From a virus, in IMG/VR virus record IMGVR_UViG_3300010885_061724, positions 1 to 22,754 of that record: a stretch of 22,754 nucleotides of DNA; one strand, 5' to 3'. The notes under the pieces are model-generated. The model made no database searches. It saw only the letters and a program-made list of their open reading frames with translations, and was not told the DNA's origin. Both the position numbers and the translations under genes were made by a program. This document shows, piece by piece, positions 11,056 to 21,843 of this stretch (positions are counted from its first letter, which is position 1; every line of letters begins with the position of its first letter).

Positions 11056-11099
11056 ATATATAATTTATCTTCAAACCTAACAGAGTGATTATAGCCATC

Positions 11100-11107
11100 T
11101 ATAAATA
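11100..11107 (+). promoter_or_regulatory. Possible late promoter TATAAATA before gp55
   Basis: An exact TATAAATA lies in the 120-base gap before gp55, with a predicted start near 11113 and a leader of about 60 bases. It lies upstream of a separate sigma70-like promoter, so gp55 may be transcribed both early and late. A chance AT-rich match is possible. Confidence 0.5.
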
Positions 11108-11119
11108 TCTTGTCAAGTG

Positions 11120-11148
11120 TTGCCAAAAATCAATAAAACTGATATAAT
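11120..11148 (+). promoter_or_regulatory. Early sigma70-like promoter of gp55
   Basis: TTGCCA at 11120-11125 and a perfect TATAAT at 11143-11148 are separated by 17 bases. Transcription would start near 11155, about 20 bases before the gp55 ATG. This is one of the best host-type promoters in the window. Confidence 0.75.
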
Positions 11149-18178: not shown

Positions 18179-18202
18179 AGAGGGTTCAACACCCTCTTTT
18201 TT
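18179..18202 (+). terminator. Rho-independent terminator after regA
   Basis: AGAGGGT at 18179-18185 pairs with ACCCTCT at 18191-18197 around a TCAAC loop and runs into six T residues at 18197-18202. It closes the gp45-44-62-regA unit. Confidence 0.9.
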
Positions 18203-18213
18203 GTACTTTTTTG

Positions 18214-18219
18214 TATAAT
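18214..18219 (+). promoter_or_regulatory. Possible -10 element before hsp20
   Basis: A perfect TATAAT stands in the regA-hsp20 gap, but no -35 element is found 15-19 bases upstream because that stretch is the preceding terminator. It may work as a weak or factor-assisted early promoter. The start near 18226 would put the following hairpin at the very 5' end of the message. Confidence 0.35.
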
Positions 18220-18226
18220 TAGTAAT

Positions 18227-18247
18227 ATCAGATGCTTCGGGTCTGAT
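18227..18247 (+). other. Hairpin with UUCG tetraloop in hsp20 leader
   Basis: ATCAGAT pairs with GTCTGAT, one T-G wobble included, and encloses a C(TTCG)G tetraloop with one bulged G. UUCG loops are exceptionally stable in RNA. No T run follows, so it is not a terminator. A role in 5' mRNA protection is possible. Confidence 0.5.
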
Positions 18248-18279
18248 GTTTACAATACTCGCTCTTACGGAGAAAATCT

Positions 18280-18717
18280 ATGTGGTCAACAAAAATTACA
18301 AAGTATAGTACTGGAAATATTGAAAAGTTTCTAACTGATATTGATAAGTATTCTATTGGAATGGATGAATGGTTAGATCGCTTCAATTCTCATCATCAAA
18401 CAGAATCAAACTATCCCCCGTACAATCTAATTAAAGAAAGCAACACAGCTACAAGACTTGAAATTGCTCTTGCAGGGTTTAGGAAAAGTGAAATCTCCGT
18501 CTATACTGAAAATAATAAACTATTTGTGAAAGGTGAAAAAGATTCAGTTGAAGAAACTGAATATGTACATCAGGGACTTGCAAAACGAGCATTCACTCGT
18601 ATATGGACAATCTCTGATGATGTAGAAGTAAAGGAAGTTACATTTGAAGATGGGCTACTTACAGTTAAACTTTCTCGCATTATTCTAGAGCATCAAATAA
18701 AGAAGATTTGGTTCTAA
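18280..18717 (+). CDS. hsp20: Small heat shock protein Hsp20
   Basis: A 145-residue alpha-crystallin-family chaperone. The N-terminal ~50 residues are variable. The core begins at 'YPPYNLIKESNTATRLEIALAGF' (residues ~46-68), followed by 'VYTENNKLFVKGEK', 'HQGLAKRAFTRIWTISDDVEV' and 'FEDGLLTVKLSR', matching bacterial IbpA-type proteins. Its C-terminus ('LEHQIKKIWF') lacks a clear I-x-I/V tail motif. It would hold unfolding host or phage proteins during infection. An Hsp20 gene at this place between regA and gp43 is a hallmark of T4-like cyanophages. It has a good ribosome binding site (ACGGAG) and is framed by terminators on both sides. Confidence 0.95.
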   Translation: MWSTKITKYSTGNIEKFLTDIDKYSIGMDEWLDRFNSHHQTESNYPPYNLIKESNTATRLEIALAGFRKSEISVYTENNKLFVKGEKDSVEETEYVHQGLAKRAFTRIWTISDDVEVKEVTFEDGLLTVKLSRIILEHQIKKIWF

Positions 18718-18740
18718 ATAATATTGCTATCGTTGTCGCA

Positions 18741-18782
18741 GGGAGGGAGCTGGCAAAATCCAGTTGCACCTCCCCTTTTTTT
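18741..18782 (+). terminator. Rho-independent terminator after hsp20
   Basis: GGGAGG at 18741-18746 pairs with CCTCCC at 18769-18774. Inside, CTGG at 18750-18753 pairs with CCAG at 18760-18763 around a CAAAAT loop, separated from the outer stem by an internal loop. Seven T residues at 18776-18782 follow. Its 3' side also contains the -35 element of the next promoter. Confidence 0.88.
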
Positions 18783-18792
18783 GTGCTACAAT
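18764..18792 (+). promoter_or_regulatory. Early extended -10 promoter inside the hsp20 terminator
   Basis: TTGCAC at 18764-18769 and TACAAT at 18787-18792 are 17 bases apart, and TGC immediately before the -10 makes it an extended -10 (TGNTACAAT). Transcription would begin near 18799, about 18 bases before the first Sm-like gene. It would drive that gene, its neighbour and gp43. Confidence 0.75.
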
Positions 18793-18816
18793 GTATTTGG
18801 TTGAAGATTATAAACT

Positions 18817-19122
18817 ATGTCTGTTAAACTTTTGATTCTTAAATCATACGAAGATCTAATTGCTGATGTCAAGGAAATGCTTTCTGGGGACAAGGTAATT
18901 GGATATGTTTTAGATAATCCTTATCTTGTGAGATTGGAAGAAGGTAGTCAGGACCTTCCTGCAAGGGTTTCTTTTTACCCTTATGCACCACTTTCTAAAG
19001 ATAAATCTATCCCCATTCCTTGTGATTGGGTAGTCTCTATTCTTGAACCCCTTGATGAAGTTAAAAAATCTTATTTGGAGAATCTAGATGCAAAATCTGA
19101 AAATTCTAATTCTAAAGAATGA
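18817..19122 (+). CDS. Sm-like protein (paralogue B)
   Basis: A 101-residue protein with the same layout as the gene at 10684: an opening 'KLLILKSYEDLIADV', a central 'YVLDNPYLVRLEE', 'RVSFYPYAP', then 'IPIPCDWVVSILEPLDEV' and a Glu/Ser/Asn-rich tail. This order of strands with a central NP and a late P..D.V.SI segment suggests an Sm-like fold with possible RNA binding. I know no function for it; cyanophages often carry unnamed small genes between hsp20 and gp43. It is the first gene behind its own predicted promoter, and its 3' end overlaps the next gene by 35 bases. Confidence 0.8.
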   Translation: MSVKLLILKSYEDLIADVKEMLSGDKVIGYVLDNPYLVRLEEGSQDLPARVSFYPYAPLSKDKSIPIPCDWVVSILEPLDEVKKSYLENLDAKSENSNSKE

Positions 19123-19351
19123 AAAAATTCTTGTAACTGAAGTACATGAAGTAGAATCTGAATTGGGTGAACCTGATTGTAAATTAGTCAATCCATGTGA
19201 AATGTTTGTATCAAGCAAAGATGTTTGGGAAATGAAGACATGGCCTTGTTTTACAAATCAAAGAGAGCTTAAGATACATTCTGATTCTATTTTTAGTATT
19301 GTTGATCCAACTCCAGAACAGATTCAACTTTATATAGAGACTATTAAATGA
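19088..19351 (+). CDS. Sm-like protein (paralogue C), overlapping B
   Basis: An 87-residue protein beginning within the last codons of the preceding gene. The ATG at 19088 has GGAG eight bases upstream, and no later in-frame ATG would keep the first strand, so the 35-base overlap looks genuine. Its pattern repeats that of its neighbour: 'LKILILKNEKILVTEV', 'CKLVNPCEMFV', 'TWPCF', and 'LKIHSDSIFSIVDPTPEQ'. Its stop overlaps the gp43 start (ATGA), tying its translation to DNA polymerase. A third Sm-like paralogue is the most economical reading, though similarity across the three is low and needs structural confirmation. Confidence 0.75.
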   Translation: MQNLKILILKNEKILVTEVHEVESELGEPDCKLVNPCEMFVSSKDVWEMKTWPCFTNQRELKIHSDSIFSIVDPTPEQIQLYIETIK

Positions 19352-21843
19352 AATTTTACACTAATGTTGTTCTTGTTGGAAATGAAATACTTTCCAGAGG
19401 ATATGATAACGGAAAATATTTTAAGAATAGGGAACAATTTTATCCAACACTCTATGTACAGACCAATAAAAAAACAAAGTTTAAAACTTTGGAAGGTTTA
19501 TATGCAGATGAGATAAAACCTGGAACTATTCGTGAAACTCGTGACTTTATTCAAAAGTATGAGAATATTGATAACTTTATCTTGTATGGAAATACAAGAT
19601 ATATAAATCAATATATTTCTGAAAATTATTCAGAGGATAACATTAAGTTTGATATTAATAAAATTAAGCTGATTACAATTGATATTGAGGTAGCATCTGA
19701 GAATGGATTTCCTGATGTAAAAAGTTGCCAAGAAGAACTTCTTACTATTTCTATTCAGAACTATGCTACCAAAAATATTATTACTTGGGGAATAAAGCCA
19801 TTCAATAATACTAATCCAAGTGTTGAATATATTGAATGTAAAGATGAATTTGATCTTTTAGATAGATTCATTGCTTTTTGGGAATATGAAACTCCAGAAG
19901 TAATTACTGGTTGGAATTGTGAACTTTATGATATTCCATACATTTATGGAAGACTTCAAAAAGTTCATGATACAAAAACTGCAAAAAAACTTTCTCCCTG
20001 GGGAATTGTAACTGAAAAAGAAGTTTACATTACTGGCAGAACTCATACTAGTTGTGATATTGCTGGAATTACTGTTCTTGATTATTTGGATTTGTATAAG
20101 AAGTTTACTTATACAAATCAAGAATCTTATCGTCTTGACCACATTGCCTTTGTTGAGCTTGGGCAAAACAAATTGGATCATAGTGAATTTGATACTTTCA
20201 AGGAATTCTATACAAAAAATTGGCAAAAGTTTGTAGAATATAATATTAAGGACGTAGAACTTGTTGATAGATTGGAAGATAAGATGAAATTAATTGAGCT
20301 TGCTATTACTATGGCATATGACTCAAAAGGTAATTATAATGATGTTTTCTATCAAGTAAGAATGTGGGATTCTATTATCTACAATTATCTAAAGAAAAAA
20401 AATATAGTAATTCCTTTCAAAAAAAATAATAAAAAGGATGAAAAGTATGCTGGTGCTTATGTAAAGGAACCAATTCCAGGTAAATATGACTGGGTAGTGA
20501 GTTTTGACTTGAATTCACTATATCCTCATTTAATTATGCAATATAATATAAGTCCTGAAACACTTTTGACTGAAAGACACTCTAATGTCACTGTAGATAA
20601 AATTCTAAATCAAAGTATAGATTTTTCTGATGTAAGAGACTATGTAGTGTGCGCTAATGGTGCCATGTATAAAAAGGATGTGAGAGGATTTCTTCCAGAG
20701 TTAATGGAAAAAATTTATAATGATCGTGTCATCTATAAGAAAAAGATGATTGATGCGAAGAAAAAATATGAAAAGACTCCAACAAAAGATTTAGAAAAAG
20801 AAATTGCTAGATATAATAATATTCAGATGGCAAGAAAGATTCAACTCAACTCTGCCTATGGTGCTGTAGGCAATGAATATTTTAGATATTTTCGTATAGA
20901 AAATGCTGAAGCAATTACATTGTCTGGGCAGGTTTCTATTAGGTGGATTGAGAATAAGATGAATTCTTACTTAAATAAAACTTTGAAAACAAATGAAGTT
21001 GATTATGTTATTGCTTCTGATACTGATTCCCTATATCTCAATTTAGGTCCTTTAGTAGAAACTGTATACAAGGGAAGAGAAAAAACTTCTGAAAGTGTGG
21101 TTTCATTTCTTGATAAGATTTGTAAGATGGAGCTTGAAAAGTATATTGAAAGTTCTTATCAAGAATTGGCAGATTATGTAAATGCATATGATCAAAAGAT
21201 GTTTATGAAAAGGGAGAATATTGCTGATCGTGGAATCTGGACTGCCAAGAAACGTTATATTCTAAATGTCTGGGATAGTGAAGGGGTAAGATATTCTGAA
21301 CCTAAACTTAAGATGATGGGAATTGAAGCAGTCAAATCTTCAACTCCAGCTCCTTGTAGGAAGAAGATTAAAGAAGCTCTGTCAATTATTATGAATAAAA
21401 CTGAAGATGATTTGGTTAAGTTCATTGATGAGTTTAGAAAGGAATTTAGCAATCTTCCTCCAGAAGAAATATCATTCCCAAGATCTGTAAATGAACTTAC
21501 TAAATATAGATCTGTAAATTCAATTTACGAAAAAGGAACTCCTATTCATGCAAGAGGTGCTCTTCTTTATAATTACTATGTGAAGGATAGGGGATTGGAT
21601 AATAAATATCCTCTTATTAATAATGGTGAAAAAATTAAATTTTGCTATCTCAAAAAGGCAAATCCAATTAGAGAAAATGTACTGTCATTTATTCAACAAT
21701 TTCCTAAGGAATTGGGTCTTGTTAAATATGTGGATTATGACTTACAATTTGAGAAGAGCTTTATTGAACCACTAAAAATTATTCTAAATTGTATTGGGTG
21801 GAGTGTTGAAAAAACTGTTAATTTAGATTTACTTTTTGCTTAA
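19348..21843 (+). CDS. 43: Replicative DNA polymerase gp43 (family B)
   Basis: An 831-residue family B polymerase with 3'-5' proofreading. Exo I 'DIE' is at 112-114, Exo II 'GWNCELYDIPY' has N190 and D195, and Exo III 'YNIKDVELV' has D302. Polymerase motif A 'SFDLNSLYP' contains D387, motif B 'KIQLNSAYG' contains K497 and runs to 505, and motif C 'SDTDS' ends at 561. All catalytic residues are present. It is shorter than T4 gp43 (898). The C-terminal 'NLDLLFA' looks like a clamp-binding peptide, comparable to the 'SLFDMF' end of the RB69 polymerase. Translation starts inside the stop of the preceding small gene; no other promoter was found just before it. Confidence 0.98.
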   Translation: MKFYTNVVLVGNEILSRGYDNGKYFKNREQFYPTLYVQTNKKTKFKTLEGLYADEIKPGTIRETRDFIQKYENIDNFILYGNTRYINQYISENYSEDNIKFDINKIKLITIDIEVASENGFPDVKSCQEELLTISIQNYATKNIITWGIKPFNNTNPSVEYIECKDEFDLLDRFIAFWEYETPEVITGWNCELYDIPYIYGRLQKVHDTKTAKKLSPWGIVTEKEVYITGRTHTSCDIAGITVLDYLDLYKKFTYTNQESYRLDHIAFVELGQNKLDHSEFDTFKEFYTKNWQKFVEYNIKDVELVDRLEDKMKLIELAITMAYDSKGNYNDVFYQVRMWDSIIYNYLKKKNIVIPFKKNNKKDEKYAGAYVKEPIPGKYDWVVSFDLNSLYPHLIMQYNISPETLLTERHSNVTVDKILNQSIDFSDVRDYVVCANGAMYKKDVRGFLPELMEKIYNDRVIYKKKMIDAKKKYEKTPTKDLEKEIARYNNIQMARKIQLNSAYGAVGNEYFRYFRIENAEAITLSGQVSIRWIENKMNSYLNKTLKTNEVDYVIASDTDSLYLNLGPLVETVYKGREKTSESVVSFLDKICKMELEKYIESSYQELADYVNAYDQKMFMKRENIADRGIWTAKKRYILNVWDSEGVRYSEPKLKMMGIEAVKSSTPAPCRKKIKEALSIIMNKTEDDLVKFIDEFRKEFSNLPPEEISFPRSVNELTKYRSVNSIYEKGTPIHARGALLYNYYVKDRGLDNKYPLINNGEKIKFCYLKKANPIRENVLSFIQQFPKELGLVKYVDYDLQFEKSFIEPLKIILNCIGWSVEKTVNLDLLFA

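Follow-up and report, generated by a model that had tools for sequence, protein, structure and literature searches.

The gap between hsp20 and an Sm-like gene in the stretch of viral DNA analyzed here (the window; 22,754 nt, positions 1 to 22,754 of IMG/VR record IMGVR_UViG_3300010885_061724) probably holds a late-transcribed small RNA gene of cyanophages, the terminator of which has been co-opted as an early promoter. Comparison of relatives established the conservation of the block, covariation of its stems, constant spacing, a single copy in each of 18 genomes, and the separability of its two functions; that the promoters fire, that the RNA is a separate molecule, and that its seed pairs with a target is what we infer.

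In the proposed mechanism, a late-type [A/C]TAAATA promoter at the end of the upstream gene would start an RNA of ~55-75 nt, with its 5' end at the seed AUCGUCGNCGC or directly upstream of it, its 3' end being formed by a Rho-independent terminator, the hairpin with the loop UGGC[A/C]AAAUCCA. This hairpin would have to fold and, mostly, terminate; in most of the relatives compared, its 3' side would also be shaped into a sigma-70 -35 element, TTGACN, built from the closing TT of the inner stem, the bulged bases joining the helices, and the first outer pair. The T-run would act as the spacer and, with an extended -10 next to it, give an early promoter for the following operon (Sm-like and gp43 in the window). 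The early promoter would thus drive Sm-like and gp43 early, and the late promoter would drive the RNA afterwards.

Based on ORF order and family matches, the window comes from a T4-like cyanophage genome, and the nearest records listed for it belong to phages of Synechococcus and Prochlorococcus and to uncultured marine viruses. The order on the plus strand is clamp-loader subunit, translational repressor, hsp20, Sm-like, a second DUF6561 protein, and gp43. The features of the region are as follows.

18280 to 18717, plus strand: hsp20 (Pfam HSP20, 49.6 bits; PHROG 432)
18714 to 18720, plus strand: CTAAATA, late-promoter-like, overlapping the hsp20 stop codon TAA at 18715-18717 (sequence, relatives)
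18729 to 18739, plus strand: ATCGTTGTCGC, the window version of the ATCGTCGNCGC motif and proposed unpaired 5' seed (R1 match from 18729)
18741 to 18774, plus strand: two-part hairpin (fold; covariation over 48 elements)
18741-18746 with 18769-18774, plus strand: outer stem GGGAGG/CCTCCC (fold)
18747 with 18767, plus strand: single pair between the helices (fold)
18748-18753 with 18760-18765, plus strand: inner stem AGCTGG/CCAGTT (fold)
18754-18759, plus strand: loop CAAAAT (fold)
18764 to 18769, plus strand: putative -35 element TTGCAC in the 3' side of the hairpin, mostly TTGACN in relatives (sequence, relatives)
18776 to 18782, plus strand: seven-base T-run that ends the intrinsic terminator and lies within the promoter spacer (sequence)
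18784 to 18792, plus strand: putative extended -10 element TGC-TACAAT, with TGC at 18784-18786 and TACAAT at 18787-18792 (sequence, relatives)
18817 to 19122, plus strand: Sm-like protein, first gene past the early promoter (3by7 profile, predicted model, Foldseek)
19348 to 21843, plus strand: gp43 DNA polymerase, third gene past the promoter (PHROG 262, 1183 bits)

The hairpin at 18741-18774 and its T-run are present as the original prediction had described them, by direct reading and by folding (18729-18782 folds at -19.2 kcal/mol). The promoter that it had read as TTGCAC, 17 bases, and TGC-TACAAT is likewise there, with a 17-bp spacer and a start site predicted from spacing near 18799; it is weak by itself and draws its support from relatives. 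The two overlap in bases as claimed, the -35 lying within the 3' side of the hairpin and the T-run within the spacer. The -35 straddles both helices: the inner stem closes with its TT, the G and A form bulges, and the outer stem opens with its last C. TTGCAC agrees with TTGACA at 3/6 positions and TACAAT fits the consensus at 5/6, and the promoter score of 9 was reached in 292 of 2,000 mononucleotide shuffles of the gap, which preserve base composition only. Considered alone, the window promoter is a weak match and not above chance, and TTGCAC reads as a weakened form of the TTGACN of relatives. A simple terminator and promoter scan listed neither element of the window, because it limits loops to 8 nt and requires 4/6 matches per hexamer, of which TTGCAC has only 3.

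In relatives the promoter goes beyond chance. We scored 155 distinct elements with the canonical loop and at least 350 nt downstream, many of them close kin (8 elements with less than 350 nt downstream and an unrelated match, L171:914, were left out). The score was at least 10 in 141 elements, 9 in 4, and lower in 10; after clustering at 0.88 similarity, 18 of 28 groups scored at least 10, 2 scored 9, and 8 scored less. In all 141 promoter-bearing elements the -35 began 0-3 nt past the CCA of the inner stem. The spacer was 17 bp in 137 of them, TGn preceded the -10 in 130, and the -35 read TTGACT, TTGACA, or TTGACG in 128. This conservation backs the earlier proposal that termination and initiation use the same ~50 bases. 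The original prediction had named relatives that keep the hairpin but not the -35/-10 spacing as evidence against it; such relatives exist and count in part against it, a hairpin with a promoter score below 9 being found in 10/155 elements and 8/28 clusters, including S-PM2 and Syn9. The longest downstream frame starts 0-1 nt past the T-run in 5 of these 10 elements and in 6/141 promoter-bearing ones. Among 80 contigs fetched by the hsp20 protein alone as one relative set, model R1 matched 70; of the 10 misses, L003 and L038 end inside the gap.

Alignment of the gap also exposed a conserved block upstream of the hairpin, which begins with a TAAATA where the upstream gene ends. Its layout is [A/C]TAAATA, usually 9 nt, ATCGTCGNCGC, and the hairpin with the loop UGGC[A/C]AAAUCCA and covarying stems. 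The view of the hairpin as the hsp20 terminator is therefore incomplete: hairpin and T-run do stand there, but they also form part of this conserved block, which the original prediction did not mention.

The link between the two halves of the block was examined in both directions, with shuffles that preserve base composition only. All 90 loci chosen by hairpin and -35 alone, representing 62 distinct upstream stretches, formed the forward test. The seed was found in 62/62 stretches, and TAAATA lay at most 22 nt from it in 61/62 (farther upstream in the remaining one), at a distance of 9 in 44/61. In mononucleotide shuffles, computed on 80 of the 90 loci, the seed appeared in 0.6% and the seed with TAAATA in 0%. 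The first seven bases of the seed, ATCGTCG, were exact in 61/62 of these hairpin-chosen relatives (58/59 in the position table), and position 8 was G, C, or T, never A, in that table. The converse test took loci chosen by TAAATA and seed only; 117 were used for loop counts, 113 of which were long enough among the matches listed, and 79 listed loci were inspected for hairpin and terminator variants. Among the matches listed, the loop TGGCN5CCA occurred in 95/113 loci (0.23% in shuffles) and a hairpin preceded a T-run in 108/113. The 18 listed loci lacking the canonical loop comprised 5 unstructured, chance-like matches (L192, L216, L217, L220, and L261) and 13 with variant hairpins.

The base before TAAATA was left free in the scan, and over the 113 matches listed it was C in 58, A in 53, G in 2, and T in 0. 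The published cyanophage late promoter is given as NATAAATA in the accessible text of PMC2984593. Set against TATAAATA and NATAAATA, position 2 was A in 53/113 and C in 58/113 of the matches listed; counting against the small RNA gene, CTAAATA differs from NATAAATA by one base and is the form of roughly half of the late-promoter candidates. Motif counts in five genomes showed ATAAATA, but not CTAAATA, to be over-represented. A role of [A/C]TAAATA as a late promoter is plausible from these motifs, and a late transcript, given T4-like spacing, would begin near the seed. Also against the small RNA gene, in the nearest relatives of the window (L002-L019 where matched), the seed has drifted, e.g., to ATTGTTGCC, and R1 gave 28-37 bits; the R1 score of the window itself is not independent, because L001, identical over the gap, is in the model. 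Continuation of the hsp20 reading frame into the block was considered and rejected, as the stop-to-seed distance was spread over the three frames (17, 11, and 12 of 40 distinct gaps).

A secondary structure that is conserved through compensatory changes, as expected of small RNAs, was observed in an alignment (A1) of 48 diverse elements, from which L250, L255, L282, L284, L194, L171:914, and sequences with an MFE above -12 were excluded. Seven of its nine consensus pairs had compensatory changes. Paired cells amounted to 91.4%, versus 76.9% in shuffles, and covariation was 0.506 versus 0.215, a value reached by 0/500 shuffles, a comparison that kinship may inflate; slid registers, a control that retains relatedness but favors structure from the same alignment, gave at most 0.27. 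The inner pair at columns 35-50 was AU in 26 elements, CG in 7, GC in 7, UA in 6, and GU in 2, with none broken. Seed invariance within A1 is by construction, because the search pattern fixes most of the seed. A putative promoter of its own and a Rho-independent terminator surround a conserved noncoding core, as judged from sequence. The AAAA of the loop precedes the -35 by 6-9 bp, which puts it at about -41 to -44, and T4-like early promoters carry A-rich, UP-like sequence at -40 to -44 according to PMC1524935. An UP-like role may help to conserve the loop, but it cannot explain the persistence of the loop where the promoter is missing.

T4-like cyanophages are abundant in surface waters, and the hosts of the viruses at issue are ocean and lake cyanobacteria. 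When a composed 82-nt query was compared by blast with 50,697 phage records, 300 of them matched with an E of at most 0.1, in one place each, and 297 of the 300 were named Synechococcus, Prochlorococcus, or cyanophages. The query was covered to at least 80% in 74 of the 300 records, and the matches in the rest do not imply the whole block. No annotation among the blast matches listed names it. R1 found one strong copy per genome in 18 records of 170-198 kb (44-74 bits; one with an extra match of 15.4 bits), genomes that had been selected because they hit. Among nine records picked independently of the element, S-SCSM1 and S-SKS1 carried it in the hsp20 gap and S-CAM9 had a divergent copy elsewhere (25.8 bits); P-SSM2, P-HM2, S-SSM7, P-RSM6, P-TIM68, and T4 had no R1 match above 14 bits. 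In five cyanobacterial host genomes, with 150 first-look candidates scored per genome, R1 gave nothing above 21.9 bits. A multi-copy mobile cassette was also considered and rejected in view of the single copy per genome (18 genomes).

The element occurs in two genomic settings. The first is that of the window, with hsp20, the element, an Sm-like or hypothetical gene, and gp43 (S-SM2, S-CAM1, and S-CAM3). The second consists of hli or a small hypothetical gene, the element, a hypothetical gene, and psbA, and was seen in S-RIM8, S-RIM50, S-H35, P-SSM7, Syn19, S-ShM2, and others; where labels are given, GC162 precedes the element and GC942 or GC174 follows it. Rfam 15 gave no family at or near gathering score over the element in the window and seven isolate loci. 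The literature searched, with incomplete coverage of print, held no description of the block in the accessible text of PMC4503421, PMC3037559, PMC2984593, and PMC9964418, nor in that of PMC2518516, PMC12197685, PMC2864571, and PMC1524935. The block offers a defined candidate small RNA to search for directly in infection RNA-seq.

One short sequence would act as RNA terminator and promoter -35 together, and natural variants separate these roles. In S-PM2 (L180), where the downstream gene is annotated as convergent, the block keeps TAAATA, the seed, and the CTGGCAAAAACCAG hairpin and reads AAGAC where others read TTGAC. In Syn9 (L179), the next gene begins right after the T-run and the -35 is missing. 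The loop hairpin is not the terminator in L250, L255, L282, and L284, where a separate hairpin and T-run follow, and in S-CAM9 the seed is exact, the hairpin differs in sequence but by eye follows the same plan of outer stem, bulge, and inner stem, and the terminator is separate. Conversely, L026, L031, L041, and L078 have the hairpin and early promoter with no seed block. Another class (L021, L024, L030, L040, L042, L043, DSL-LC03, and L246) carries the seed and a hairpin that has a different loop, followed directly past the T-run by a late-type TAAATA and no early promoter. Some relatives keep the hairpin but not the promoter, and others the promoter but not the motif; therefore the hairpin is not only hsp20 punctuation. 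These sequence variants place the hairpin in a conserved RNA-like block, and they show this block and the putative early promoter to be separable. As side observations, L226 is a further natural variant of the block lacking the -35 of the early promoter, and in L021, L024, L030, L040, L042, L043, L246, and L187 the T-run is fused to or stands directly before [AC]TAAATA after an hsp20-type hairpin, an arrangement that reads as the late counterpart of the early composite.

The strongest competing explanation, which we nevertheless regard as unlikely, is that the element is punctuation only, a PeSL-like composite that divides the hsp20 and gp43 units, with motif and loop as details of a 3' UTR (e.g., a stability or processing signal). 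The fixed position and spacing of the promoter in 141/155 elements and 18/28 clusters would follow from it, the four seedless loci keep hairpin and promoter, and P-TIM68 has in the same gap a plain hairpin with GTGACA-17-TAAAAT. Similar composites, defined by a promoter score of at least 10 and a -35 starting upstream of the T-run, were also present at other terminators of six cyanophage genomes: 12/198 hairpin terminators with a T-run were composites, versus 11/2618 T-runs with no hairpin and 6/721 intermediate cases. Three of the 12 were copies of the present element and the remaining 9 were still in excess (Fisher p 3e-6); at a looser cut-off of 9, the counts were 15/198 terminators and 65/2618 plain T-runs. 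In some composites the -35 hexamer is the terminator loop, e.g., CCCTTGACAGGG in S-SM2, and in Syn9 0/30 terminators were composite.

The PeSL cassettes of T4-like phages, associated with the names Arbiol 2010 and Comeau 2014, reportedly occur in many similar copies that are dense in hyperplastic regions and reportedly mediate recombination or module exchange. Like them, the present element unites a putative sigma-70-type early promoter, a weak match in the window itself, and a stem-loop terminator in one intergenic unit, and different gene modules stand downstream of the same hairpin position, as judged from gene content. Composites of this kind resemble PeSL cassettes, and therefore the overlap, taken alone, varies an already known arrangement. 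The -35 of the element lies within the hairpin, a placement that may set it apart from published PeSLs. Unlike in PeSLs, its hairpin has a conserved loop and shares a block with a seed and a motif of the late-promoter type, and where checked it is present as one strong copy per genome (18 genomes), in place of the many similar copies of a recombination cassette; the other composites differ in sequence. PeSL (promoter-early stem-loop) cassettes are described for T4-like phages in PMC4503421, according to which S-PM2 is without the dense PeSLs found in other T4-like phages. What speaks against mere punctuation is that seed and loop are conserved far beyond the needs of a terminator, and that the block keeps its own TAAATA when the upstream gene differs, occupies a second genomic place, and persists when the promoter is absent.

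A small RNA gene is also preferred over a DNA-level site within the terminator, such as a replication origin or a packaging or recombination site, with the inverted repeat as cruciform or protein site. This is improbable, even if a single copy, the strict conservation of ATCGTCG, and two alternative positions would suit it. Its position on one strand, with a late-type promoter motif before it and a T-run behind it, and the compensatory changes in the stems argue against it, as do cumulative GC skew extremes far from the element in five genomes, which is weak evidence because skew may simply track gene strand. Equally improbable is the switch first proposed, in which pausing at the terminator would occlude the promoter and an open complex would block read-through to give mutually exclusive states early and late: the 17-bp spacing is conserved along with the overlap and the two transcripts would fall in different phases if TAAATA is a late promoter, but the RNA part and the promoter each persist alone, and therefore neither depends on the other.

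For the small RNA gene, a more far-reaching version can be put forward, which we hold as doubtful: a widespread late small RNA family whose AUCGUCGNCGC seed would act in trans on a conserved target and which, in the hsp20 setting, would be served by the Sm-like protein of the phage, the gene for which would be switched on by the early promoter hidden in the terminator of the RNA. A search for phage mRNA targets, taking the top 12 duplexes in 5 genomes, found no gene family in more than two genomes. The seed complement GCGNCGACGAT had 18-22 exact matches each in G011, G012, G013, and G015, which are Synechococcus/Cyanobium-type hosts (2-4 for the reversed control in these four, 0-4 over all five hosts; 82 host matches in total), an excess that codon usage may explain. 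The Prochlorococcus MIT 9201 assembly contains no exact match, and because of this, exact pairing with rRNA as the general target of the seed looks unlikely. The gene right behind the promoter has the same predicted fold as the Sm/LSm protein 3by7; a chaperone role of this protein for the phage's own small RNA is an idea suggested by the proximity of an RNA-binding fold to a putative RNA with a U-rich 3' end, against which stands the hli/psbA setting of S-ShM2, where the Sm-like gene lies about 25 kb from the element.

The original labeling of the ORF at 18817-19122 as Sm-like was borne out by a PDB profile match (3by7, E 5.3e-10), a predicted model (pLDDT 89.9), and a Foldseek comparison of that model with 3by7 (E 3.4e-6, TM 0.77/0.94), and the protein is predicted to be an Sm-type beta barrel resembling solved Sm-like proteins. 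The neighboring ORF at 19088-19351 matches DUF6561 at 81 bits, and the Sm-like ORF matches it weakly (22.4 bits, under the cut-off of 27); from these matches, the two may form a tandem Sm-like pair.

Noncoding RNAs listed for T4-like cyanophages are few in the accessible sources, namely, CfrI and some cis-regulatory RNAs. With CfrI, wcaG, manA, glnA, and PhotoRC-II, the element would share the character of a short conserved noncoding RNA of T4-like cyanophages. CfrI of S-PM2, by the available account ~225 nt and antisense to psbA, is set apart from the element by its description. PhotoRC-II or wcaG was located within about 1.2 kb of the element in L172, L174, L176, and L179.

Other putative regulatory sequences were observed along the way. 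In S-SM2, the regA-hsp20 gap (L171:896-1000) has a second TAAATA with ATCGTCGCTC behind it; farther downstream come a hairpin whose loop contains TTAACC and then TATAAT, which makes another composite; the region is possibly another small RNA. The 5' leader of hsp20 resembled the heat-shock RNA thermometer ROSE_3 of Rfam in L187:1017-1080 and L171:1013-1074 (30.6 and 24.9 bits, respectively, below the curated cut-off of 43). In the window's own hsp20 leader (about 18199-18279), Rfam at E 0.5 found nothing and the fold was -17.8 kcal/mol; from the ROSE_3 matches, an RNA thermometer carried by phage at the hsp20 leader is possible. Elsewhere in the window, at 11088-11148, two divergent, near-perfect promoter-like sites adjoin back to back: the minus strand has TTGACA-17-TATAAT, and the plus strand has TTGCCA-17-TATAAT with TGn.
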